Of a DNA stretch of 33,087 nucleotides, positions 19,846-33,087 are shown in pieces. Under the pieces are notes generated by a model that made no database searches, was not told the origin of the DNA, and saw nothing but the letters and a program-made list of their open reading frames with translations. Source of the DNA: Actinomycetota bacterium. GTDB lineage: Bacteria; Actinomycetota; Thermoleophilia; UBA2241. Both the position numbers and the translations under genes were made by a program. The DNA lies in the NCBI GenBank assembly GCA_003132585.1, contig PKYG01000063.1, positions 1 to 33,087 of the forward strand, given 5' to 3'. Each line of letters begins with the position of its first letter. Position 1 is the stretch's first letter.

Positions 19846-20694
19846 CTAGCCGGCAGTGGCGTTCCCCGGCTTGGGCCCGTTGAGCGGCGGCTTGGCCTTC
19901 GACGGTGAGAGTGACCCCGGGTCGACCAACGTGCTTCCTTCCGGACCCACCCGCACCGCCCTGCGCACCGCGCTCCCGCGCAGCAGCTTGCGCCAGGACA
20001 GGAACCACACGGTCCAACCGTTATCCCAGGCGCCGCCGCGCGGGCTTCCGGTGATCGTCACGGGGTCGCCGGGGACGGCGAGCTGATAGTAGGTCTTGGC
20101 GTGCTCGGGCGAAAGGTTCACGCAGCCGTGGCTGACGTTAGCGAAGCCTTGCTCGCCGACCGACCAGAAGGCGTCGTGCCCGTAGTCGCCGCTCCAGGTG
20201 AACTGCACCGACCAGGGCACCTGAATGTCGTAGCCCGGACCCTTCATGTGGGCGGGGTTCTGCTTCTCGATCGTGAGGTAGGTCCCGTTCGGGGTGTCGT
20301 CTCCGGGCTTGCCGGTGCTGATGGGCCAGTTGGCGAACAGGTGCCTGTCGAGGTAGATGCGCACGTGGTGGGCGCTCGTGCTGGCCACGGCGATGAGCGA
20401 ACGACCGATGACGAAGCTCTGCTTGAGGGTGTGCGTTCCGTACACGCCGGGCGCGCCCTCGATGCCGTCGAGATGCCCGACGAAGCGCACTTTGGTGTGC
20501 GCGGGCCAGTAGCGCCGGGTCCGAAAGTAGAGGGTGGAGCTCCCGTCCCAGTACCAGGCGCCGACCACGTGCTTGGAAGACCACAGGTGCAGCGAGCGCT
20601 CTACGGCGCGGCGGTCGCTGATGGGTTTGCTGAACTTGAGGATGACGGGCATGCCGACGCCATACGCCAAGCCGCTACCCTCGAAGATCTGCAT
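19846..20694 (-). CDS. L,D-transpeptidase, catalytic part of a frameshifted gene
   Basis: The YkuD domain that makes 3-3 peptidoglycan cross-links outside the membrane. The catalytic motif is intact: H173 in GDYGHDAFW and VSHGCVNL (S188-H189-G190-C191-V192-N193). Residues 1-95 are an Ig-like domain (YGVGMPVILKFSKPISDRRA, VVGAWYWDGSSTLYF). A Pro-rich tail follows the enzyme domain. The frame begins in mid-protein. The true gene continues upstream as 20675-21151 in another frame, and removing one C from the run at 20711-20715 joins FRTLTP to RHTFRMQIFEG without a gap. Either a real mutation, a homopolymer read error or, less likely, a programmed +1 shift. Confidence 0.88.
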   Translation of the reverse strand: MQIFEGSGLAYGVGMPVILKFSKPISDRRAVERSLHLWSSKHVVGAWYWDGSSTLYFRTRRYWPAHTKVRFVGHLDGIEGAPGVYGTHTLKQSFVIGRSLIAVASTSAHHVRIYLDRHLFANWPISTGKPGDDTPNGTYLTIEKQNPAHMKGPGYDIQVPWSVQFTWSGDYGHDAFWSVGEQGFANVSHGCVNLSPEHAKTYYQLAVPGDPVTITGSPRGGAWDNGWTVWFLSWRKLLRGSAVRRAVRVGPEGSTLVDPGSLSPSKAKPPLNGPKPGNATAG

Positions 20695-21761: not shown

Positions 21762-22412
21762 GTGACAGGTCGAGTCGCGATCGAGCACCTGAGGCGTTCC
21801 GAGCTCATTGATGCGACCATCGCCACCATCGCCGAACGCGGCTTTCTGCGCACTACGGTCAGAGAAATCGCGAGGAGAGCCAGCTGCTCTCCCGCCGCGG
21901 TCCTTTACTACTTTCCCCGCAAGGATAACCTCCTCGTGGTTGCCTTCCGCGAAGCGGATCAGCGCTTCCGGAGCCGAGTGCAGGCTGAGATTGCACTGCG
22001 TCAAGGAGCATCGAAACTCGAGCGGATCATCGAGCTGTGCTTCGCAGAGGGCGAGGAGGAGGCGCTCTGGAGCATCGAGTTCGAGGTTTGGGCTTTCGCC
22101 AGTCGCCCCGACGACGCCTACTTCCGGCAGATCTTCGAGATCGCCAACTCCGACTGGCTCGACATTCTCACGGAGGCCGTGGGCGACGCCGTCAAACGAG
22201 GCGACCTGGCAATAGCCGATGCGCGCGCCTGGGCCGTGAAGCTCGCGGCTCTGATCGATGGCTTCGGAGTCCATACCCACGTGACCAAACACGTCGACAA
22301 AGGCACCGCGCGCAGAATGCTGCTCGCGGAGATTGACTCGGTGCGTGCGCCAGCACGAGATGAGATCGAGAAGGAGGAAGAGCAATGGGCAGGACGCATG
22401 ACAACGGTATGA
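21762..22412 (+). CDS. TetR-family (BetI-like) transcriptional regulator
   Basis: A 216-aa repressor-type protein. Residues 9-55 form the TetR HTH (LRRSELIDATIATIAERGFL, TTVREIARRASCSPAAVLYY, FPRKDNLL). The rest is the ligand domain, which resembles BetI (the choline-sensing group) more than TetR itself, with FEVWAFASRPDDAYFRQ and a C-terminal HVDKGTARRMLL helix. GTG 21762 follows GGGGGAGG with 9-base spacing. It heads the operon, so it very probably represses itself and the transport and catabolic genes through the tandem sites at 21674-21707. The inducer is unknown but presumably is the imported compound or a product. Confidence 0.88.
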   Translation: MTGRVAIEHLRRSELIDATIATIAERGFLRTTVREIARRASCSPAAVLYYFPRKDNLLVVAFREADQRFRSRVQAEIALRQGASKLERIIELCFAEGEEEALWSIEFEVWAFASRPDDAYFRQIFEIANSDWLDILTEAVGDAVKRGDLAIADARAWAVKLAALIDGFGVHTHVTKHVDKGTARRMLLAEIDSVRAPARDEIEKEEEQWAGRMTTV

Positions 22413-23551
22413 CGCGGCGCGAAGTCCTCAAGTACGGCACGATGGCCGGCCTCGGATTCACTCTGCTACCGGGGCTTCTGGCTGCCTGCGGAAAGGAATC
22501 GCCTTCGGCCGTCGCCAGCGGCGTGGCGGCGAAGCTGAAGTCCGGCTCGACGATCAAGCTCCTCGCCTGGGAGGGCTACGACACCCCGGCGAACCTCGCC
22601 GCCCTCAAGAACGACTACGGCGTCAACACGAAGATCACCTACATCGCCGGCGACTCGGAGGTCTTCACCAAACTCGGGGCGCAGAAGGGCATCGGCGCCT
22701 GGGACGTCCTCACCTACAACTCTAGCCTCGCGCCCGGCCTCTATGAGATGGGCGCGCTCGAGGCGATCTCGCCCTCCTCGGTGCCCAACTCCGCGGACAT
22801 CTACCCCGAGTTCATGACCGTCGACTTCATCCATACGGGAGAGGGCGACACGGTGACGGGCATGCCCTTCTCGTGGTCCTACCAGGGCTTCGTGAGGAGC
22901 GGCAAGCTGCCGCAGCTGACCTCGTGGGACCAGCTCCTCGACCCGAGCTACAAGGGCAAGATCGTCACGGTGAACGACGCCACCACCTCAGTCGCCACCG
23001 CTTGCCTCGCCTCGGGCCTCACGCAGTACGACAAGCTTACCAAGGACCAGCTCAACCAGGCGATGGACTGGTGGTACAAGTTGAAGCCCAACCTGCGCAC
23101 GATCGTCAGCGACTACGGCGTCGCCAAAGACCTGCTCGTCCGCGGGGAGATCGACGGCACGGTTTGTGGCTGGCAGGCGCTCGTCGCTTTTGCGGCTGTG
23201 GACGGCGTCACGCTCTACCACGACTTCCCCAAGGAGGGCGTCTACGGCTACATGGACCTGCTCACCCTGGTCAAGGGGGCGAAGGACCCGGCGAACGCGT
23301 TAGGCTGGATCAACTTCATCCTTTCTCCCGACGCCCAAAAGAACCTCGCCACCGAGCTGTCCCAGGGCATCACAAACCAGAAGACCGTGCCCATGCTCTC
23401 GAAGGAGCTGCAGGACGCGTATCAGTACGCCCACCTCTCTGAGAACCTCCAGAAATCGCCGATCCGCAGGCTGCCGTCGTTCCGCGGAGAGGGCGACTAC
23501 GTCGGCTTCGTCGACTGGGCCACTGCATGGGAGCGGTTCACAGCTGCATGA
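22385..23551 (+). CDS. Tat-exported lipoprotein, polyamine-type ABC substrate-binding protein
   Basis: A 388-aa periplasmic-type binding protein of the PotD/SBP_bac_8 group. The N-terminus has a twin-arginine motif (TRREVLKYG, residues 10-18), a hydrophobic core and a lipobox LLAAC with C35. It would therefore be folded in the cytosol, exported by Tat and lipid-anchored. The mature part has the two-lobe pattern (IKLLAWEGYDTPANLAALKN, FSWSYQGFVR, LASGLTQYDKL, FILSPDAQKNLA). The start at 22385 follows AAGGAGGAAGAG and overlaps the regulator by 28 bases; an inner ATG at 22409 forms ATGA with the regulator stop. The binding-protein class usually takes up polyamines, opines or other small cations. 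Confidence 0.88.
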   Translation: MGRTHDNGMTRREVLKYGTMAGLGFTLLPGLLAACGKESPSAVASGVAAKLKSGSTIKLLAWEGYDTPANLAALKNDYGVNTKITYIAGDSEVFTKLGAQKGIGAWDVLTYNSSLAPGLYEMGALEAISPSSVPNSADIYPEFMTVDFIHTGEGDTVTGMPFSWSYQGFVRSGKLPQLTSWDQLLDPSYKGKIVTVNDATTSVATACLASGLTQYDKLTKDQLNQAMDWWYKLKPNLRTIVSDYGVAKDLLVRGEIDGTVCGWQALVAFAAVDGVTLYHDFPKEGVYGYMDLLTLVKGAKDPANALGWINFILSPDAQKNLATELSQGITNQKTVPMLSKELQDAYQYAHLSENLQKSPIRRLPSFRGEGDYVGFVDWATAWERFTAA

Positions 23552-23579
23552 GACGCTGTCGTCTTTCCGAGGAGCAGCA

Positions 23580-24722
23580 GTGAGCAGCGGGGCGAGCACC
23601 GACGCGTTGACGGCTGGCAGCAGTCTGGCGGGCGTCAGCGCTACCACGCCTGCGCAGGCGGTCGTACGCCTCAGCCGCGTCTCCAAGCGATTCGGCAAGG
23701 TCGTCGCCGTCGATGAGGTGAACCTCGAGATTCCTCAGGGGCACTTCACGACGCTGCTCGGTCCCTCCGGCTGTGGCAAGACCACCCTGCTGCGCATGCT
23801 CGCCGGCTTCGAGGAGCCGACGACTGGTACCGTCGAGATCGATGGGCGCGACATGCGGGGGGTGCCGCCGGAGCGCCGCCCCGTCAACATGGTCTTCCAG
23901 CGCTACGCGCTCTTCCCGCACCGTAACGTCATCGAGAACGTGATGTTCGGACTCGAGTCAGCCCGCGTCCCACGCCCGAGCGCCCTCGCTCGGGCGCGGG
24001 AGGCCCTCGCCACCTGCAACATCGAGAACCTCGAGACGCGGCGCATCAGCGAGCTCTCCGGCGGGCAGGCGCAGCGCGTGGCGGTGGCACGGGCGCTCGT
24101 CAACCGCCCCAAGATCCTGCTCCTCGACGAGCCGCTCGCGGCGCTTGACGTGAAGCTGCGCAGACACCTGCGGTTCGAGCTGCGCCGACTGCAGCAGGAA
24201 CTCGAGACGACCTTCCTCTACGTCACCCACGATCAGGGCGAGGCGCTCGCCATGTCCGACTCCATCGTCCTCATGAACGGCGGCCGCGTCATCCAGCACA
24301 GCTCGTCCCGCGAGCTCTACGACGCCCCCAACTGCGTCTTCGCGGCGACCTTCATCGGCGAGGCGAACGTGCTGAGCTGCACTGTCCGGAGCGTGGCGCA
24401 GGACGTGGCCGAGGTGGTGATCGACGGCATCACCATGCGCGCTTCCGCGCGCGGGCCCGTGCCGGAAGGCACCCAGGCCCACCTCTACGTACGGCCCGAG
24501 CGGGTTGCGCTGCGCCAGGGAGGCGAGGGGGCGGACCTCCAGGTGACGGTGACGGACGCCGCCTTCGAGGGCGGCATCGTGCGCTATTGGCTGACCGTCA
24601 GGGACACGCAGATCGAGCTGGTGGCGGAGACGATGGTGCGCGCCGGAGACGCCATCTTCCCGCCCGGTGCGAGCCTGCAGGCATCCTGGGAGGCGGGCGA
24701 GGCCCATGTCCTCCTTGAGTAA
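23580..24722 (+). CDS. ABC transporter ATPase (PotA-like)
   Basis: A 380-aa ATPase. Walker A is GPSGCGKTT (61-69), Q-loop Q107, signature LSGGQ (159-163), Walker B ILLLDE (179-184) and switch His217 in VTHDQGEA. The C-terminal 90 residues are a TOBE_2 regulatory domain, as in PotA and other type I importers of the spermidine/putrescine/iron class. GTG 23580 has GAGGAG 6 bases upstream, and 28 bases separate it from the binding-protein gene. The first 25 residues are low-complexity and precede the normal start of the fold, so the protein has a short extra N-tail. It powers the fused permease encoded next. Confidence 0.92.
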   Translation: MSSGASTDALTAGSSLAGVSATTPAQAVVRLSRVSKRFGKVVAVDEVNLEIPQGHFTTLLGPSGCGKTTLLRMLAGFEEPTTGTVEIDGRDMRGVPPERRPVNMVFQRYALFPHRNVIENVMFGLESARVPRPSALARAREALATCNIENLETRRISELSGGQAQRVAVARALVNRPKILLLDEPLAALDVKLRRHLRFELRRLQQELETTFLYVTHDQGEALAMSDSIVLMNGGRVIQHSSSRELYDAPNCVFAATFIGEANVLSCTVRSVAQDVAEVVIDGITMRASARGPVPEGTQAHLYVRPERVALRQGGEGADLQVTVTDAAFEGGIVRYWLTVRDTQIELVAETMVRAGDAIFPPGASLQASWEAGEAHVLLE

Positions 24723-26427
24723 GCGACGCAAGGACGAGCTGACGATCGCCGGCGAGCTCACGCCGCTCGGCGTCGTGCTCCTGCTGGCCTTCTTCGTGCC
24801 GCTCAGCCTGCTGTTGGCCTACTCGTTCTGGAAGCAAAACGGCTTCGACGTCGTGCACGAGTTCACCTTGGCCAGCTACGTGACCGCGCTCACCGACACC
24901 TTCTTCCTGAGACTCCTCTTCCGCTCACTGGTCATCGGCGCCGCCGTGGCCTTCTTCTCGGTCGCCCTCGCCTACCCCTACGCGTACGCCGCGACCTTCC
25001 GCTTTCCGCGGGCGCGAGGCGCGCTGCTCTTTGCGGCGCTGCTCTCCATGTTCACCTCGTACCTGGTGCGCGTGTACGCCTTCCAGACGATCCTCGGCGA
25101 GACCGGCGTCATCAACAGCGCCCTCAAGGGCCTGGGCCTGATTCACAAGCCGCTCTCGTTCCTGCTCTTCAACTCGTTCGCCGTCGTCATCACCCTGACG
25201 AACGTCTTCCTGCCCTATGTGGTCCTGCCGATCTGGGCGGCGATGCAGTCGGTCGAGCGCAACCAGCTCGAGTCCGCGCGCGACCTGGGGGCGAGGCCGT
25301 TCGCGACGTTCTGGCGCGTCGTCTACCCGATGACGAAGAACGGCGTGCGCGCCGGCTTCATCTTTGCCTTCGTCTTGGCAGCCGGCGACTACGTGACGCC
25401 GACCCTGGTCGGCGGGCCGAGCGGCACGATGATCGGTCGCCAGATCTCGGTCGCGTTCGGCCTGCTCAACAACTACCCGCTCGGCGCCGCGCTGGCGTTC
25501 GTGCTGCTCCTCGCCTTCGCCCTGACGGCGTGGCTCCTGCCGGCCCTCATCGCGCGCATCCCGCGACCGCCCGCGGTGCGCTGGGCGTTCTCGGCGCCCC
25601 TGCGCGCGAGCGACCACGTCCGCCTGCCGCTCTCGAGCTACTGGGCGCACGCTTACGTGGCCGCCGTCGTGTTGTTCCTCTTCGTGCCGCTCGCCATCAT
25701 CATCCTGCTCTCGTTCAACACGAGCTCGGTGCCGGCGTTCCCGATGCGCGGCCTCACCTTGCACTGGTACGCGCGCGTGTTCTCCAACATCACGTTCCGT
25801 GACGCGTTCTACACCAGCCTCAAGGCGGCGGCGCTGACGGCGGTGATCGCCGCCGTCCTGGGCACGCTCGCGGCGCTCGCCTTCGCGCGCCACAAGTTCC
25901 GCGCCAGGGGGCCGCTGATGGGCCTGCTCTTCGCCCCGCTGGCGATGCCGGGCCTGATTACCGGGGTCGCCATGCTCACCGTCTACGTGGCGCTCGGCGT
26001 CACCCTCTCGCTATGGACGATCACCCTCGGTCACCTCGTGTACGCGACGCCGTTCGTCGTGCTCGCCATCGCCGCGGGCCTCTCCGATCTCGACCCGGGC
26101 CTCGAGGAGGCGGGGCGCGACCTCGGCCGCGGCCCCTTCGGCGTCTTCCGCAAGGTGACGCTGCCGCTCGTCTTCCCGGTGATCGTGGGCGCAGCGTTCG
26201 TCGCCGCTGCGCTCTCGTTGGACGAGTTCATCATCACGAACTTCGTCTCCGGCAGCACCATGACTCTGCCGCTCTACATCTGGGCCAGGCTGCGTATCGG
26301 CGTGACCCCTGACACCAACGCTGTGGGGGCGCTCATCCTCGCGGGCTTGGCGCTGCTCTCGCTCGCCGCCTGGTACCTCACGCGACTGACGTCCACCTTC
26401 ATCAGCAGAAGAGGAGAATCGAAATGA
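24706..26427 (+). CDS. Fused ABC permease (PotB-PotC in one chain)
   Basis: A 573-aa membrane protein holding two type I importer permease units in tandem, residues about 10-300 and 310-573. Each has six or so helices and an EAA loop: ERNQLESARDLGARPFATFW in the first and DPGLEEAGRDLGRGPFGVFR in the second. PotB and PotC are usually separate proteins, so this is a gene fusion that fixes their one-to-one ratio. ATG 24706 is chosen over upstream starts because the 13 earlier residues are not membrane-permease-like and GGAGG lies close by. It overlaps the ATPase gene by 17 bases, and the next gene by 4 (ATGA). Substrate specificity cannot be read from it. Confidence 0.9.
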   Translation: MSSLSKRRKDELTIAGELTPLGVVLLLAFFVPLSLLLAYSFWKQNGFDVVHEFTLASYVTALTDTFFLRLLFRSLVIGAAVAFFSVALAYPYAYAATFRFPRARGALLFAALLSMFTSYLVRVYAFQTILGETGVINSALKGLGLIHKPLSFLLFNSFAVVITLTNVFLPYVVLPIWAAMQSVERNQLESARDLGARPFATFWRVVYPMTKNGVRAGFIFAFVLAAGDYVTPTLVGGPSGTMIGRQISVAFGLLNNYPLGAALAFVLLLAFALTAWLLPALIARIPRPPAVRWAFSAPLRASDHVRLPLSSYWAHAYVAAVVLFLFVPLAIIILLSFNTSSVPAFPMRGLTLHWYARVFSNITFRDAFYTSLKAAALTAVIAAVLGTLAALAFARHKFRARGPLMGLLFAPLAMPGLITGVAMLTVYVALGVTLSLWTITLGHLVYATPFVVLAIAAGLSDLDPGLEEAGRDLGRGPFGVFRKVTLPLVFPVIVGAAFVAAALSLDEFIITNFVSGSTMTLPLYIWARLRIGVTPDTNAVGALILAGLALLSLAAWYLTRLTSTFISRRGESK

Positions 26428-27575
26428 GCAGACTCCGTGTCGGCGTCGTCGGCCTCGGCGCGATCGCCCAGATCCAGCACCTCCCGAACCTCGAGCAGCT
26501 TCGCGACCTGTACGAGGTCGCACACGTCTGCGACCTCTCGCCGCGGCTCGTGGAGACCATCGGCGAGCGCAACGGCGTCGCGGCGCGCACGACGGACTGG
26601 CGCGAGCTGTGCGCGGATGTGAGCCTCGACGCGGTGATCCTCCTCAACTCGGGGTCACACGGACCGCAGGCGCGGGCGGCGCTCGAGAGCGGCCTCCACG
26701 TGTTCGCCGAGAAGCCGCTCTGCTTCACGGTCCGGGAGGCGGACGAGCTCGAGGCATTGGCGCAGTCCAGCGACTGCGTCCTGCAGGTCGGCTACGTGAA
26801 GTCCCACGAGGCGGTGATGGCCCGGGCGCGCGCCGAGGTCGAGCGCCTCGGCGACCTGCGCTTCGTGCGGCACGCTGTCTTCCATCCCTCCGAGGTGCAG
26901 CAGCAGGAGCACGTCAACGTGCTGCGCTTCGACGACGCCGATCCCGAGGCGCTGCGCAAGGCCGCGGAGGAGAACGCGGCGCTGGTGCGGGAGGCGATCG
27001 GCGACGTCGCGCCGGGGCTGCAGTGGCTCTACGGTGAGCTCGGACTGGGGTCGATCGTGCACTACCTGGCGGTCTTCCGCTCGCTCTTCGGGCGCTTGCC
27101 CGAGTCGATCATCGCGGCCTACGCGTGGCCCTTCGACCCGGAGAGCCCGCCGGTCGGCTGGGGCCCGGACGATCAGCTGCCGACGCTCAGCGTCTTCGCC
27201 TCGTTCGGCGCCGAGTGCCGCCTCGACCTCACCTGGGCCTGGCTGCAGCGTTATCCGGAGTACCGCGAGCAGATCGAGGTCTTCTCCCCCGAGGGAGGCG
27301 TGCGCCTGCAGCTGCCGCCCCCCTACCTCCATCACCGCACCGCGGCTCTGACCGTCGAACGCCTGGGCGCCGACGGCGAGCACGAGTCCGTGGGCGCCTC
27401 GGGCGGCTTCGACGCGGCCTTCCTACGCGAGCTGCGCGACTTTCACGCGGCCGTCACCGGCGCGTCCCCCGTCGTCTCGACTGCGGCCGACGCCCGCGAC
27501 GACGTGCGCTTCTGTCAGGAGCTCGTGGCGCGCGTCGCCGAGAGCACCGCGTCGGATGTGAAGCGCGTGCCATGA
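26424..27575 (+). CDS. Gfo/Idh/MocA-family oxidoreductase (probable cyclitol dehydrogenase)
   Basis: A 383-aa NAD(P)-dependent dehydrogenase. The nucleotide fold shows VGVVGLGAIA (residues 6-15) and the family's FAEKPL (E96-K97-P98). The C-terminal half is the alpha/beta substrate domain, with SIVHYL and WLQRYPEYREQIE. In inositol pathways enzymes of this family (IolG) oxidise myo-inositol to 2-keto-inositol, which fits the next genes, and MocA oxidises inosamine-type compounds. The protein is longer than canonical IolG (about 335 aa), so identity as IolG is not claimed. It overlaps both neighbours by ATGA. Confidence 0.87.
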   Translation: MSRLRVGVVGLGAIAQIQHLPNLEQLRDLYEVAHVCDLSPRLVETIGERNGVAARTTDWRELCADVSLDAVILLNSGSHGPQARAALESGLHVFAEKPLCFTVREADELEALAQSSDCVLQVGYVKSHEAVMARARAEVERLGDLRFVRHAVFHPSEVQQQEHVNVLRFDDADPEALRKAAEENAALVREAIGDVAPGLQWLYGELGLGSIVHYLAVFRSLFGRLPESIIAAYAWPFDPESPPVGWGPDDQLPTLSVFASFGAECRLDLTWAWLQRYPEYREQIEVFSPEGGVRLQLPPPYLHHRTAALTVERLGADGEHESVGASGGFDAAFLRELRDFHAAVTGASPVVSTAADARDDVRFCQELVARVAESTASDVKRVP

Positions 27576-28468
27576 GCATGTCCGAGCTGTCGCGCGGCGA
27601 CAAGGTGCGGAGTCTGCACTACCCAGCCGGCAGTCTCGCCGACGGCGAGGACGAGGTCGTCATCACGCCGCAGCGCGTGGGGTTCACGTTCGCCGGCTTG
27701 CGCGTCGTCCGCCTCGAGCCGGAGGCCACGCTCACGCTCAGGACGGACGAAGACGAGCTTGTCGTCTTGCCCCTCGCCGGCGGCTGCCGCGTCGAGACCG
27801 ACGGCCTGTCCGCTACCCTCCAGGGTCGCGACGACGTGTTCGCGCGCATCAGCGACTTCGTCTACCTCCCTCGCGAGAGCGAGGTGCGCATCACGGCCAG
27901 CCGCAGCTGCGAGCTGGCCCTGCCGTCAGCCCGGGCGCGGCGGCGCCTCGAACCGGCGTACGGTGAGGCCGAGGCTGTGGACATCGAGATCCTCGGCGCC
28001 GGCCAGGCGACGCGCCAGAAGAACAACTACCTGGCGCCCGAGGGCCTCCCCGCGGATCGCCTCTGCCTCTGCGAGGTCCTGACCCCCGACGGCAACTGGT
28101 CGTCCTATCCGCCCCACAAGCACGACGACCCGTCGACGGGCGAGTCGGTGCTCGAGGAGATCTACTACTACCGCCTCGGCGGTGGGCCGTCCGCCTACGG
28201 CTGCCACCGCACCTACGACCTCGAGCAGGGCTGGGACGTGACGGTGACCGTGCGCAGCGGCGATGTCTTCCTCGTGCCGCGCGGCTACCACGGGCCATGC
28301 ATGGCGGCGCCGGGCTACCCGATGTGGTACCTCAACGTGCTCGCGGGGTCTGCGGCCGAGCGCTCGCTCCTCGTCGCCGACGACCCCGACCAGCACTGGA
28401 TACGCGAGTCGTGGCGGACGCAGGCGACGGACCTGCGGATCCCGATGACGACGGCGGCAGCGCGATGA
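27572..28468 (+). CDS. iolB: 5-deoxy-glucuronate isomerase
   Basis: A 298-aa bicupin that converts 5-deoxy-glucuronate to 2-deoxy-5-keto-gluconate in inositol catabolism. The C-terminal cupin has the metal-binding set NWSSYPPHKHDD (H182, H184) followed by GESVLEEIYYYR (E191, E195, E196), and a later PRGYHGPCMAAPGYPMWYLNV supplies the last His. These strings are characteristic of IolB. The start at 27572 makes ATGA with the upstream stop. The length is normal for the family. It directly precedes iolD. Confidence 0.93.
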   Translation: MSMSELSRGDKVRSLHYPAGSLADGEDEVVITPQRVGFTFAGLRVVRLEPEATLTLRTDEDELVVLPLAGGCRVETDGLSATLQGRDDVFARISDFVYLPRESEVRITASRSCELALPSARARRRLEPAYGEAEAVDIEILGAGQATRQKNNYLAPEGLPADRLCLCEVLTPDGNWSSYPPHKHDDPSTGESVLEEIYYYRLGGGPSAYGCHRTYDLEQGWDVTVTVRSGDVFLVPRGYHGPCMAAPGYPMWYLNVLAGSAAERSLLVADDPDQHWIRESWRTQATDLRIPMTTAAAR

Positions 28469-30402
28469 GGACGCGTCGGCTGACGATGGCCCAGGCCATC
28501 ATCGAGTTCCTCGCCGTGCAGGAGGTCGAGCGCGATGACGCGCGCCACAAGTTCTTCGCAGGCTGCATCGGCATCTTCGGACACGGCAACCTGGCGGGCA
28601 TCGGGCAGGCCCTGCAGGAGACCCCCGACTTCCGTTACATCCAGGCGCGCAACGAGCAGGCGGCGGTGCACGTCGCCTCGGGCCTGGCCAAGCAAAGCAG
28701 GCGCCTGCGCACCCTCGCCTGCACCTCCTCAATCGGCCCCGGTGCGACCAACATGGTGACCGGTGCGGCGGTGGCCACCGTCAACCATCTGCCGGTGCTG
28801 CTCCTGCCCGGGGACGTGTTCGCGAGCCGGCGGCCCGACCCCGTGCTGCAGCAGTTGCAGGTGCCCTACGCCGGTGACGTCAGCGTCAACGACTGCCTGC
28901 GCCCGGTCTCGCGCTACTTTGACCGCCTCACGCGGCCCGAGCAGGCGCCGAGCGCCCTGTTGCAGGCGATGCGCGTCCTCACCGACCCGGCCGAGACGGG
29001 CGCCGTAACGCTCGCGCTGCCCCAAGACGTGCAGGCCGAAGCCGCCGACTTCCCGGACGAGCTGTTCGCGCCGCGGGTCTGGCACATCCCTCGCGCGCTG
29101 CCCGACGCGGCCGCCCTGCAGCGCGCTGCCGCGCTGCTGCGTGAGGCCGAGCGGCCGCTGATCGTGGCTGGCGGCGGCGTCCTCTACTCGGAGGCCTCGG
29201 AGGCACTCGCCTCGTTCAGTGGGGCGACGGGCATACCGGTCGCCGAAACGCAGGCCGGCAAGGGCGCGATGCACTTCGCCAGCCCCCTCACCCTGGGGAG
29301 CGTCGGGGTCACGGGGACGCTGGCGGCCAACGCGGTGGCTTGCGAGGCCGACCTCGTGCTCGGCGTCGGTACCCGCTACTCGGACTTCACGACCGCCTCA
29401 CACACCGTCTTCGCGGAACCCGGCGTGCGCTTCATCAACGTCAACGTGGCGGGCTTCGACGCCGGCCGCTTCGCCGGGTGTCCTCTGGTGGGCGACGCGC
29501 GCGCCACCCTCGACGCCTTGGCCGGCCTCCTCGAGGGCCACCATGTGGCGGAGCAGTGGACTGCCAAGGCCGCCACGCTGCACGAGCAGTGGGAGGCCGA
29601 GCTCGACCGCGTCTGCACGCCCCCCGACGGCGAGACGCTGACCCAGGCCGCGGTCATCGCTGCGGTCAACGAGGCAGCGGGTGAGGACGGCGTCGTGGTG
29701 AACGCCGCCGGGAGCCTGCCCGGCGACCTGCACAAGCTCTGGCGCAGCCGCCACCCGCGCTCCTATCACGTGGAGTACGGCTACTCCTGCATGGGCTACG
29801 AGGTGGCCGGGGGAATCGGCGCGAAGCTCGCCGACCCTGAGAGGCCGGTGTTCGCGATGGTCGGCGACGGCTCGTGGCTGATGATGTCGAGCGAACTGGT
29901 GACCGCGGTGCAGGAGGCAGTCCCGCTCGTCTGCGTGCTCGTCGACAACCACGGCTTCGCCTCGATCGGCGGGCTCTCGGAGTCGGTGGGCAGCGCCCGG
30001 TTCGGCACCGCCTACCGCAGACGAGGACCCGACGGGCAGCTGTCGGGCGAGCTGCTGCCGATCGATTTCGTCGCCAACGCCGCCAGTCTCGGGGCGCTCG
30101 CTCGCCGGGCAGACACGCTCACGGAGCTACGTGAGGCGCTCGCCGACGCGCGGAGCAGTGAGCGGCCCGTCGTCATCGTCGTGGAGACGAGCCCGGACCA
30201 CAGCGTCCCGAGCTATGGGTCGTGGTGGGACGTGGCCGTGGCCGAGCTTAGCACGATGCCGGCGGTCGCGGCGGCCCGGGATGCCTACGAGACGGCTCGC
30301 CTAAGCGAACGACCATTTGTTGCGCCGGCTGGGGATGGCACGTCAGCGGACGTGCAAGCTGACAGCTCACCGGAGCCGGCCGGAAACGGGAGGAGCCCAT
30401 GA
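28465..30402 (+). CDS. iolD: 3D-(3,5/4)-trihydroxycyclohexane-1,2-dione hydrolase
   Basis: A 645-aa thiamine-diphosphate enzyme that opens the cyclitol ring in inositol catabolism. The pyrimidine-side Glu is E64 in ARNEQAAVHVASG. The ThDP motif GDGSWLMMSSELVTAV and VLVDNHG (from about residue 466) provides GDG-x(25-30)-N. SVGSARFGTAYRRRGPDG and LPIDFVANAASLGA are family-specific for IolD among acetolactate-synthase relatives. The start is ATG 28465 (ATGA with iolB). A Pro/Gly-rich tail of about 30 residues extends past the normal end. It overlaps the next gene by 4 bases. Confidence 0.95.
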   Translation: MRTRRLTMAQAIIEFLAVQEVERDDARHKFFAGCIGIFGHGNLAGIGQALQETPDFRYIQARNEQAAVHVASGLAKQSRRLRTLACTSSIGPGATNMVTGAAVATVNHLPVLLLPGDVFASRRPDPVLQQLQVPYAGDVSVNDCLRPVSRYFDRLTRPEQAPSALLQAMRVLTDPAETGAVTLALPQDVQAEAADFPDELFAPRVWHIPRALPDAAALQRAAALLREAERPLIVAGGGVLYSEASEALASFSGATGIPVAETQAGKGAMHFASPLTLGSVGVTGTLAANAVACEADLVLGVGTRYSDFTTASHTVFAEPGVRFINVNVAGFDAGRFAGCPLVGDARATLDALAGLLEGHHVAEQWTAKAATLHEQWEAELDRVCTPPDGETLTQAAVIAAVNEAAGEDGVVVNAAGSLPGDLHKLWRSRHPRSYHVEYGYSCMGYEVAGGIGAKLADPERPVFAMVGDGSWLMMSSELVTAVQEAVPLVCVLVDNHGFASIGGLSESVGSARFGTAYRRRGPDGQLSGELLPIDFVANAASLGALARRADTLTELREALADARSSERPVVIVVETSPDHSVPSYGSWWDVAVAELSTMPAVAAARDAYETARLSERPFVAPAGDGTSADVQADSSPEPAGNGRSP

Positions 30403-31322
30403 ACGTTGAGGTATCGTCGGCGCCCTGCTCGTTCGGGGTCTGGGAGACCAACGTCGAGGAAGGAGTCCACCCGGAACCGGCGCAGTTCGTGCGGCTGGTG
30501 CGCGAGTGCGGCTACGAAGGGACCGAACTGGGTCCGCCCGGGTACCTCGGGAGCGGCGAGACGGTGGCCAGGCTCCTGCAGGAGGCCGACCTGCAGCTGG
30601 CCGGGTCCTTCTTGATGTTCCGCCTCTCACGGGAGGACGAGTTCCGCGAGGACCTCGCGGCGCTGGACGGGGCGCTCGCCGAGCTCAGGCTTGCAGCCGG
30701 CGACAACGAGCTGCCCATCGTCCTACTCGCAGACGCATTCGGCGCCGAGCCCGACAGGATGCAGTACGCCGGCGCCATCGAGCAGCATCCCGAGGCGTGG
30801 CTGAGCGCCGAGCGCTCGAAGCTGCTCGTCGCCAACCTGCAGCGCACCGCGTATCGCTGCCGCGAGCTCGGCTTCACCTGCTCGCTGCACCCCGAATACG
30901 GCAGCTACGTCGAGACCGAGCGCGAGATCACGTCGGTGTTCGAGGCCATCGATCCCGACCTGCTCGGCCTCTGTTTCGACACCGGCAACATCGCCATCGG
31001 CGGCTCGCGTCCCGCCGAGCTGCTCAAGCAGTACATGCCGGTGGTGAACCATGTCCACCTGAAGGACCTCGACCTCGGACTGCTCGCGAAGGTCCAGGAC
31101 AATGGCCAGGGGGTGGAGAGCGCCTGGGATGCGGGAGTCTTCTGTGAGATCGGCAGCGGCGACGCCCAGATCGCGGAGTGCCTCGAGGAGCTCGAGCGTG
31201 CCGGCTACGAAGGCTGGCTCGTGGTCGAGCACGAGCGCCCGCTGGTCGAAGGCTGGGCGCTCGAGGACGCTGTCGCCGCGCAGCGGGCCAACAGGGCCTG
31301 GCTGGCCGACTGGGGGGTGTGA
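30399..31322 (+). CDS. iolE: Inosose dehydratase (2-keto-myo-inositol dehydratase)
   Basis: A 307-aa xylose-isomerase-like TIM barrel. The start SSAPCSFGVWET and TELGPPGY (43-50) match the IolE pattern. Putative metal ligands are H164/E166 (SLHPEYGSY), D194 (CFDTGN), H220 with K222-D223 (HVHLKDL) and E277 (VVEHERP). WDAGVFCEIGSGD (243-255) is another IolE-type string. The enzyme dehydrates 2-keto-myo-inositol to the dione used by IolD. It is slightly diverged, so a related hexulose or inosose isomerase cannot be excluded. Translation is coupled to iolD through ATGA. Confidence 0.87.
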   Translation: MNVEVSSAPCSFGVWETNVEEGVHPEPAQFVRLVRECGYEGTELGPPGYLGSGETVARLLQEADLQLAGSFLMFRLSREDEFREDLAALDGALAELRLAAGDNELPIVLLADAFGAEPDRMQYAGAIEQHPEAWLSAERSKLLVANLQRTAYRCRELGFTCSLHPEYGSYVETEREITSVFEAIDPDLLGLCFDTGNIAIGGSRPAELLKQYMPVVNHVHLKDLDLGLLAKVQDNGQGVESAWDAGVFCEIGSGDAQIAECLEELERAGYEGWLVVEHERPLVEGWALEDAVAAQRANRAWLADWGV

Positions 31323-31379
31323 CCAGCAGGCGAAGTGAGTCGCTCGAGCCCAGACCCAGCCCGACCCGGAGGAGACCTC

Positions 31380-32516
31380 ATGCCCCCCAGTACCCCTGCG
31401 CCCTCACAGCCTGGAGAGTCGACCTCGGTCTCGAAGTCCCCACCACGAGAGCCGCTGCACGAGATGGCCGAGACCACAGCCACCGACTACTGGAACGACT
31501 CCTGCTCAACAGAGGAGCTGACCTACGCCATCGAGCGCGGCGCTGTGGGCGCCACTACCAACCCGACCATCGTCGGAGAGGTGCTGAAGAAGGAGATGCA
31601 CCTGTGGCGGGAGCGCATCGGCGAGATCATCGTCGAGCATCCGACCTGGACCGAGGATGAGGTAACGTGGAGGCTGATCGAGGAGATGGCGCAGCACGGC
31701 GCCGAGCTGCTGCTCCCCGTCTTTGAGCGCGAGGGCGGGGCGAAGGGCCGGCTCTCCATCCAGACGGACCCACGCTACTACAGGGATGCCGCCCGCATCA
31801 CCGAGCAAGCAGTGCGCTTCGCCGCCCTCGCGCCCAACATGCAGGTGAAGATTGCCGTCACGCAGGCCGGCGTCGCCGCCATCGAGGAGGCCACGGCGGC
31901 TGGCGTCAATATCAACGCCACCGTGTGTTTCACGGTCCCCCAGGCGCTCGCAGTCGCCGATGCGGTGGAGCGCGGCCTCGAGCGGCGGCGGGCTGCCGGT
32001 GAGGACGTCGAGTCCATGACACCGGTGTGCACCTTGATGGTCGGGCGCCTCGATGACTGGCTGCAAGTGCTGGTCAAGCGCGACGGCATCGTCGCCGACC
32101 CCGGCATCGTGCACTGGGCGGGCGTGGCCTGCCTGAAGAAGGCCTACGGCATCTTCGGGGAGCGTGGTTACCGGACGAGGCTCCTGGCAGCGGCCTACCG
32201 TCACCACCTGCACTGGTCGGAGCTGATCGGCGGCGACGTCATCCTCACTATCCCCTGCGCTTGGCAGCGCCTGTTCAACGCCTCCGACATCGAGGTGGTG
32301 CCGCGCATGGAGGAGCCCGTGCCGGCAGAGATCCTCGACGAGCTCTACCGCCGCTTCCCCGACTTCCGTCGTGCTCATGACGAGGGCGGCATGCCGGTCG
32401 AGGAGTTCGAAGCTTACGGGCCCACCGCCCGCACGCTGCGCGGGTTCATCGCCTCCTACCACGACCTCGCTGCCGTGGTGCGCGACTTCATGTTGCCGGA
32501 CCCGGCCGTGAGGTAG
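31380..32516 (+). CDS. Transaldolase-family protein in cyclitol operon
   Basis: A 378-aa class I aldolase/transaldolase. GATTNPTIV (residues 57-65), the acidic D40 near the start of the barrel and the Schiff-base strand MQVKIAVT (K157) followed by INATVCFTVPQAL are the family hallmarks. The gene is the last of the operon before a terminator, with 57 bases between it and iolE. ATG 31380 is chosen over an in-frame start at 31335 because GGAGGAGA lies 5 bases upstream. The usual inositol pathway uses a kinase and a class II aldolase (IolC, IolJ) at this stage; neither is seen here. The length exceeds plain TalB (about 317 aa) because of an N-terminal extension and insertions. Its substrate is open. 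Confidence 0.88.
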   Translation: MPPSTPAPSQPGESTSVSKSPPREPLHEMAETTATDYWNDSCSTEELTYAIERGAVGATTNPTIVGEVLKKEMHLWRERIGEIIVEHPTWTEDEVTWRLIEEMAQHGAELLLPVFEREGGAKGRLSIQTDPRYYRDAARITEQAVRFAALAPNMQVKIAVTQAGVAAIEEATAAGVNINATVCFTVPQALAVADAVERGLERRRAAGEDVESMTPVCTLMVGRLDDWLQVLVKRDGIVADPGIVHWAGVACLKKAYGIFGERGYRTRLLAAAYRHHLHWSELIGGDVILTIPCAWQRLFNASDIEVVPRMEEPVPAEILDELYRRFPDFRRAHDEGGMPVEEFEAYGPTARTLRGFIASYHDLAAVVRDFMLPDPAVR

Positions 32517-32529
32517 GTCATCCCCAACG

Positions 32530-32570
32530 CGCAGCGGTCTGCGCAAGCTTGACGCAGGCCGCTGCGTTTC
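32530..32570 (+). terminator. Terminator of the transport-cyclitol operon
   Basis: CGCAGCGGTCTGCG (32530-32543) pairs with CGCAGGCCGCTGCG (32553-32566), 14 pairs with one G-U, around a 9-base loop, followed by TTTC. It starts 14 bases after the transaldolase stop. The T run is short, but the stem is very stable. Confidence 0.75.
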
Positions 32571-32937: not shown

Positions 32938-33087
32938 ATGGCACTCCCGACTCGCACGCTGGGCAGAGACGGCCCGGATCTCTCGACCGTGGGCTTGGGT
33001 GCGTGGGCGATCGGTGGCGGAGGCTGGTCCTTCGGCGGGGGGCCGCAAGATGACGAGCAGTCCGTCGCTGCTATCAGACACGCCCTC
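32938..33087 (+). CDS. Aldo/keto reductase, 5' end only
   Basis: The first 50 codons of an aldo/keto reductase, cut by the window end. The start MALPTRTLGRDGPDLSTVGL, then GAWAIGGGGWSFGGGPQDDE, then SVAAIRHAL, matches the family pattern in which LG-x-x-G-x-x-VS-x-LGLG leads into strand one of the TIM barrel. AAAGGA lies about 9 bases upstream of the ATG. The gene follows the operon terminator by about 370 bases, so it is a separate unit, but the same strand and closeness make a role in cyclitol or ketose reduction possible. The catalytic tetrad is outside the window. Confidence 0.85.
   Translation, partial: MALPTRTLGRDGPDLSTVGLGAWAIGGGGWSFGGGPQDDEQSVAAIRHAL

Follow-up and report, generated by a model that had tools for sequence, protein, structure and literature searches.

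A divergent transaldolase encoded with myo-inositol genes as a proposed kinase-free substitute for IolC and IolJ

Inositol, which derives from phytate, is a major carbon source in soil and gut. In the Bacillus-type route of its breakdown (IolG-E-D-B-C-J-A), 2-deoxy-5-keto-gluconate (DKG) is the intermediate expected from the action of IolD and IolB, it is handled by the kinase IolC and the aldolase IolJ, and malonate semialdehyde is the expected product. A large genome survey counts iolB, iolC, iolD and iolE as the core gene set (PMC9430895). For inositol users that are missing IolJ, a published solution is DUF2090, found as an IolC-DUF2090 fusion in a route where DKG is still phosphorylated; 8 of 26 inositol users had neither IolJ nor this fusion (PMC9007349), and the absence of IolJ in Gaiella and Solirubrobacter was reported without an explanation (PMC6741124). 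In sulfoglycolysis of the sulfo-TAL type (SqvA/SftT, BmSF-TAL), a PF00923 transaldolase splits an acidic C6 ketose and passes the C3 unit to glyceraldehyde 3-phosphate (PMC9594981). A search of the open full-text literature for a transaldolase tied to inositol catabolism returned sulfo-TAL papers but none making that connection, subscription literature and preprints lying outside its scope. The locus described here apparently places an established fold in an established pathway in a way not described before.

The window, i.e. the whole stretch of DNA analyzed, is one entire contig of 33,087 bp. It belongs to a genome of 3.0 Mb in 142 contigs, 91.4% complete, whose nearest relatives are metagenome-assembled genomes of Actinomycetota, Thermoleophilia, Solirubrobacterales. 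The features under study are as follows.

21762-22412, plus strand: TetR-family regulator, BetI-like (BetI model 83 bits, below cut-off)
22385-23551, plus strand: ABC substrate-binding protein, PotD type (PotD model 66 bits)
23580-24722, plus strand: ABC ATPase, PotA type (PotA model 351 bits)
24667-26427, plus strand: fused two-domain ABC permease, PotB-PotC type, likely on the same transcript (stop overlaps the dehydrogenase start)
26424-27575, plus strand: Gfo/Idh/MocA dehydrogenase, candidate inositol dehydrogenase (PF01408; IolG model 74 bits, cut-off of 355 not reached)
27575-28468, plus strand: IolB, 5-deoxy-glucuronate isomerase, which makes DKG (TIGR04378, 269 bits, cut-off 205)
28468-30402, plus strand: IolD, trihydroxycyclohexane-1,2-dione hydrolase (TIGR04377, 894 bits, cut-off 715)
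30399-31322, plus strand: IolE-like TIM-barrel protein, candidate inosose dehydratase (TIGR04379, 112 bits, cut-off of 290 not reached; PF01261)
31380-32516, plus strand: divergent transaldolase, 378 aa, putative DKG transaldolase (PF00923, 140 bits)
32529-32567, plus strand: GC-rich hairpin directly 3' of the transaldolase (minimum free energy of -32.3 kcal/mol with z -5.5, lower than for every shuffled sequence)

From 22385 to 32516 all genes run in the same direction and either overlap or are separated by short gaps, in the order polyamine-type ABC transporter, Gfo/Idh dehydrogenase, IolB, IolD, IolE-like protein and divergent transaldolase. The original prediction had described an operon of dehydrogenase, IolE, IolD and IolB that ends with a transaldolase in place of IolC and IolJ. 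IolB and IolD stand, both exceeding their cut-offs, and a transaldolase is indeed the last gene; the dehydrogenase and the IolE-like protein fall below the curated cut-offs, so the substrate that enters the pathway is not certain. With IolB and IolD over cut-off and the IolE-like protein below it, the locus falls within the published definition of a myo-inositol cluster (at least three of IolB, IolC, IolD and IolE together; PMC9430895). The transaldolase starts at an ATG at 31380, 58 bp after the stop of the iolE-like gene and with GGAGG just upstream, and the hairpin behind it is probably the end of the transcript. A scan for sigma-70-like promoters found none, and is uninformative in this GC-rich contig. 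The PotABCD-like transporter with its fused permeases (22385-26427) seems to feed the iol operon, and its ligand may be a derivative of inositol or of inosose. Elsewhere in the window, and unrelated to the operon, an ORF at 19846-20694 on the minus strand resembles an L,D-transpeptidase, with a YkuD-type motif (HGCVNL) recognized by eye only.

Unlike the Bacillus-type route, with which it shares IolD, IolB, an IolE-like protein, a Gfo/Idh dehydrogenase and IolA (here elsewhere in the genome), this system has no IolC, IolJ or DUF2090. Profile searches of the 91.4% complete genome gave no IolC over cut-off (the best PfkB protein reached 118 of 300 bits), and no match to DUF2090 or to the class II aldolases that include IolJ. 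For IolC and IolJ this agrees with the original prediction, although at this completeness absence from one genome is no proof and it is the pattern across genomes that carries weight. IolC or IolJ genes immediately downstream of the transaldolase are spoken against by the hairpin and by the next gene, which starts at 32939, reads by eye as an aldo/keto reductase and runs off the contig end; this region is only partly visible, as the contig stops 570 bp past the transaldolase. IolA, the CoA-acylating methylmalonate semialdehyde dehydrogenase (MMSDH), maps to contig C18 (541 bits, above the cut-off of 448.5). A separate canonical transaldolase is encoded on contig C129, so the gene at 31380-32516 is not the housekeeping copy.

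We infer the substrate, acceptor and products of the operon transaldolase as follows. IolG/E/D/B-type enzymes would produce 2-deoxy-5-keto-D-gluconate, which written in reverse is HOCH2-CO-CHOH-CHOH-CH2-COO-, a 2-ketose from its C6 end. Derived from the stereochemistry of D-gluconate, its two chiral carbons should have the C3/C4 configuration of fructose (6-phosphate), D-threo. The (3S,4R) configuration is the one used by FSA and TalB. Cleavage between C3 and C4 by a true transaldolase would leave the dihydroxyacetone unit held as a Schiff base on Lys157 and release malonate semialdehyde, which IolA would oxidize to acetyl-CoA; transfer of the held unit to glyceraldehyde 3-phosphate would give fructose 6-phosphate, DKG never being phosphorylated. 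The DKG carboxylate and the acceptor phosphate would share one two-arginine site. One enzyme could thus do the work of IolC as well as that of the phospho-aldolase, be it IolJ or DUF2090. Taking together the observed set of genes, their co-occurrence, the mutual exclusion with IolC and the conserved active site, we consider that this kinase-free DKG transaldolase is probably the correct reading for myo-inositol breakdown; the mechanism of the original prediction is well supported, though not proven. It shares its proposed logic with the sulfo-TAL pathway; the substrate is sulfofructose there and would be DKG here, and the window enzyme is of the long TalB type (378 aa) whereas BmSF-TAL is short. 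Membership in the SF-TAL group was rejected, as the enzyme scores 37 bits to BmSF-TAL versus 87-92 bits to ordinary transaldolases and its operon is an iol one, not one for sulfoquinovose. The IolC-DUF2090 fusion likewise answers a missing IolJ in inositol users, but it retains the kinase that is absent here.

A four-member alignment was used to scan GTDB genomes and recovered at least 541 relatives, of which the top 80 (59-84% identity) were examined with 10 kb flanks where available, iol genes being called by HMMs built from annotated iol clusters. These 80 come from Chloroflexi, Acidobacteria, Verrucomicrobia, Planctomycetes, Spirochaetes, Clostridia, Calditrichales, several proteobacterial classes and more. 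Counting the window, IolB or IolD is present in 35 of 81 loci and both in 25, and the nearest IolB or IolD gene lies less than 400 bp from the transaldolase in 24. A common order is IolB-TAL-IolD-IolA-IolE-Gfo/Idh and a second is LacI-IolB-IolD-TAL-IolA-IolE-Gfo/Idh, both without iolC or iolJ. Whole-genome searches found no IolC over cut-off in 29 of the 36 genomes that have the transaldolase with iolB/iolD; an MMSDH/IolA homologue was present in 25 of these 29 (23 over the curated cut-off). The survey proposed with the original prediction thus recovered the subfamily beside iolB/iolD without iolC or iolJ in many phyla. The remaining seven genomes, mostly Proteobacteria, carry a true IolC, which counts against the kinase-free reading and rules out a strict replacement of IolC everywhere. 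Six of the seven IolC genes are long ORFs (666-940 aa), three of which lie within the examined loci and proved to be fusions of IolC with DUF2090; the seventh genome, from Chloroflexi, has IolC alone. The transaldolase tree requires 12 or more changes of the iol label (on starred branches), which shows that the association with iol genes was gained or lost repeatedly, and a single inherited iol-transaldolase cluster is ruled out.

Proteobacterial members often accompany a complete classical route. On plasmid pCI3 of Clavibacter michiganensis, a full iol cluster contains IolC, a DeoC-like aldolase, a tautomerase and, in an annotation gap, an aldehyde-dehydrogenase-like ORF; a homologue 50% identical to the window transaldolase, on a long branch, lies there behind a GntR regulator and beside IolC and the DeoC-like aldolase. 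This placement beside IolC also counts against the kinase-free reading. In the proteobacterial and Clavibacter settings with IolC, the transaldolase may be superfluous or have a different substrate.

The relation to IolC was followed in a sample of 400 Chloroflexota genomes, in which iolD occurs in 100, the transaldolase subfamily in 42 and IolC over cut-off in 41. iolD is found with the transaldolase in 26 genomes and with IolC in 40, and all three occur together in none (Fisher p 1.8e-7); if a kinase of 261 bits, below cut-off, is accepted as IolC, one such genome exists (Fisher p 1.4e-6). Genomes with iolD have the transaldolase more often than those without (26/100 versus 16/300, odds ratio 6.2, p 7.6e-8), these tests treating genomes as independent though they are related. 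In 16 genomes no more than 15 kb separates the transaldolase from iolD, and the distance is often 16-90 bp. Three other Chloroflexota loci, L132 (11775-13649), L133 (9970-11840) and L134 (2733-4674), are iolB-iolD clusters with neither IolC nor transaldolase and with a split transketolase consisting of a PF00456 subunit and a PF02779/PF02780 subunit. By analogy with sulfo-TK, a transketolase acting on DKG would give xylulose 5-phosphate and 3-hydroxy-4-oxobutanoate, and the transaldolase and transketolase iol clusters would then mirror the two sulfoglycolysis variants. Eleven other Chloroflexota loci with iolD (L135-L145) have no recognized IolB, IolC, transaldolase or transketolase nearby.

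The window enzyme belongs to the PF00923 superfamily (140 bits, cut-off 27) and scores far under every NCBIfam transaldolase equivalog cut-off (the highest scores for canonical Tal were 120 bits against 367 and 92 against 234). Its AlphaFold model (pLDDT 90) has the transaldolase fold and is closest to TalB-type transaldolases (Neisseria, Corynebacterium; TM about 0.75), not to the short FSA/SF-TAL form. Catalytic residues were aligned to E. coli TalB and FsaA and to the 80 homologues, giving as key residues the Schiff-base Lys157, Asp40, Asn61, Thr181, Gln128, Arg223 and Arg274. Lys157 and Asp40 correspond to TalB K132 and D17, and the equivalents of TalB D17, N35, K132, T156, R181 and R228 are invariant in 81/81. 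The fold, Schiff-base lysine and equivalents of Asp17, Asn35, Thr156, Arg181 and Arg228 are thus shared with E. coli TalB, the C. glutamicum transaldolase and FsaA, while identity to them is ~20-24% and three TalB sites differ in the subfamily: Glu96 is Gln in 81/81, as in FsaA, Phe178 is Met in 81/81, and Ser226 is Ala throughout. The TalB phosphate site consists of two arginines and one serine (PMC3962226). The subfamily thus retains the Schiff-base chemistry together with the two arginines, has no tyrosine at the position that confers aldolase activity and shows a retuned anion site, a set of active-site residues that fits a true transaldolase. The changes of Glu96 to Gln and Ser226 to Ala count against the kinase-free transaldolase reading.

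The same glutamine speaks for the alternative that survives best, an aldolase like fructose-6-phosphate aldolase that would split DKG into malonate semialdehyde and free dihydroxyacetone, the latter being phosphorylated or reduced elsewhere. Engineered TalB E96Q/F178Y variants have solved structures (structure titles), and F178Y alone turns TalB into an aldolase (PMC3962226). The activity-giving tyrosine is, however, the invariant methionine here, and the overall fold and 378-aa chain are of the TalB type rather than the ~220 aa of FSA. Dihydroxyacetone kinase Dak1 was not found in the genome of the window, and 20 of the 29 genomes without IolC lack it too, so free dihydroxyacetone would be without an obvious outlet and transfer is favored over release. 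We regard an aldolase of this kind as unlikely.

Slightly less likely still is that the true substrate of the transaldolase is a different 5-keto-hexonate (fructuronate, 5-keto-gluconate), or that the enzyme works in the pentose-phosphate pathway, its iol position being incidental or auxiliary. The two closest relatives (84% and 83% identity) are not beside iol genes, one adjoining a UxaE homologue and the other standing alone, and this counts against the kinase-free inositol reading. At loci without iol genes the neighbors include UxaE homologues (PF16257, 169 and 172 bits), a D-mannonate oxidoreductase (349 bits, cut-off 281), gluconate-5-dehydrogenase-like short-chain dehydrogenases (321-328 bits, below cut-offs of 369-408) and MMSDH. 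Another substrate would nevertheless leave the repeated iolB/iolD adjacency and the exclusion of IolC unexplained, and a canonical transaldolase is present elsewhere in the genome.

UxaE would convert tagaturonate, which has the wrong C4 configuration, to fructuronate, which has the right one. The UxaE and mannonate/gluconate oxidoreductase neighbors point to a subfamily whose range probably extends past inositol, and it has perhaps a little under an even chance of being a general 5-keto-hexonate transaldolase that serves kinase-free inositol and kinase-free uronate/gluconate pathways, with a transketolase variant in parallel. Neighbors at a minority of loci suggest malonate or tartronate semialdehyde as the products of the family. 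If so, it would be the acidic-sugar counterpart of sulfo-TAL, with tartronate semialdehyde as the product from uronates and gluconate. One locus without iol genes, L118, has the order TAL-MMSDH-transketolase N-transketolase C.

A class I aldolase for phosphorylated DKG, with another sugar kinase replacing IolC, is improbable: a real IolC does lie near the gene in four loci and the genome of the window has six PfkB-type matches, but most genomes with the gene and iolB/iolD lack IolC, the two are mutually exclusive in Chloroflexota, the nearby IolC is mostly already fused to a DUF2090 aldolase, and no conserved PfkB gene adjoins the transaldolase.

If the kinase-free DKG transaldolase is real, the map of inositol catabolism changes for Chloroflexota, Acidobacteriota, Verrucomicrobiota, Thermoleophilia and others, and the logic of sulfo-TAL reaches ordinary sugar acids. 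Surveys with iolC in the core set may undercount or misread transaldolase-bearing organisms.

The family of the window commonly has another divergent paralogue resembling a transaldolase, which is ~33% identical and contains an additional loop (L019-L026, L028-L030; L032, 11806-13026). The tblastn matches on Shinella plasmids (~33%) represent this different paralogue and were rejected as inositol evidence; there it lies among genes for alpha-ketoacid dehydrogenase complex subunits.
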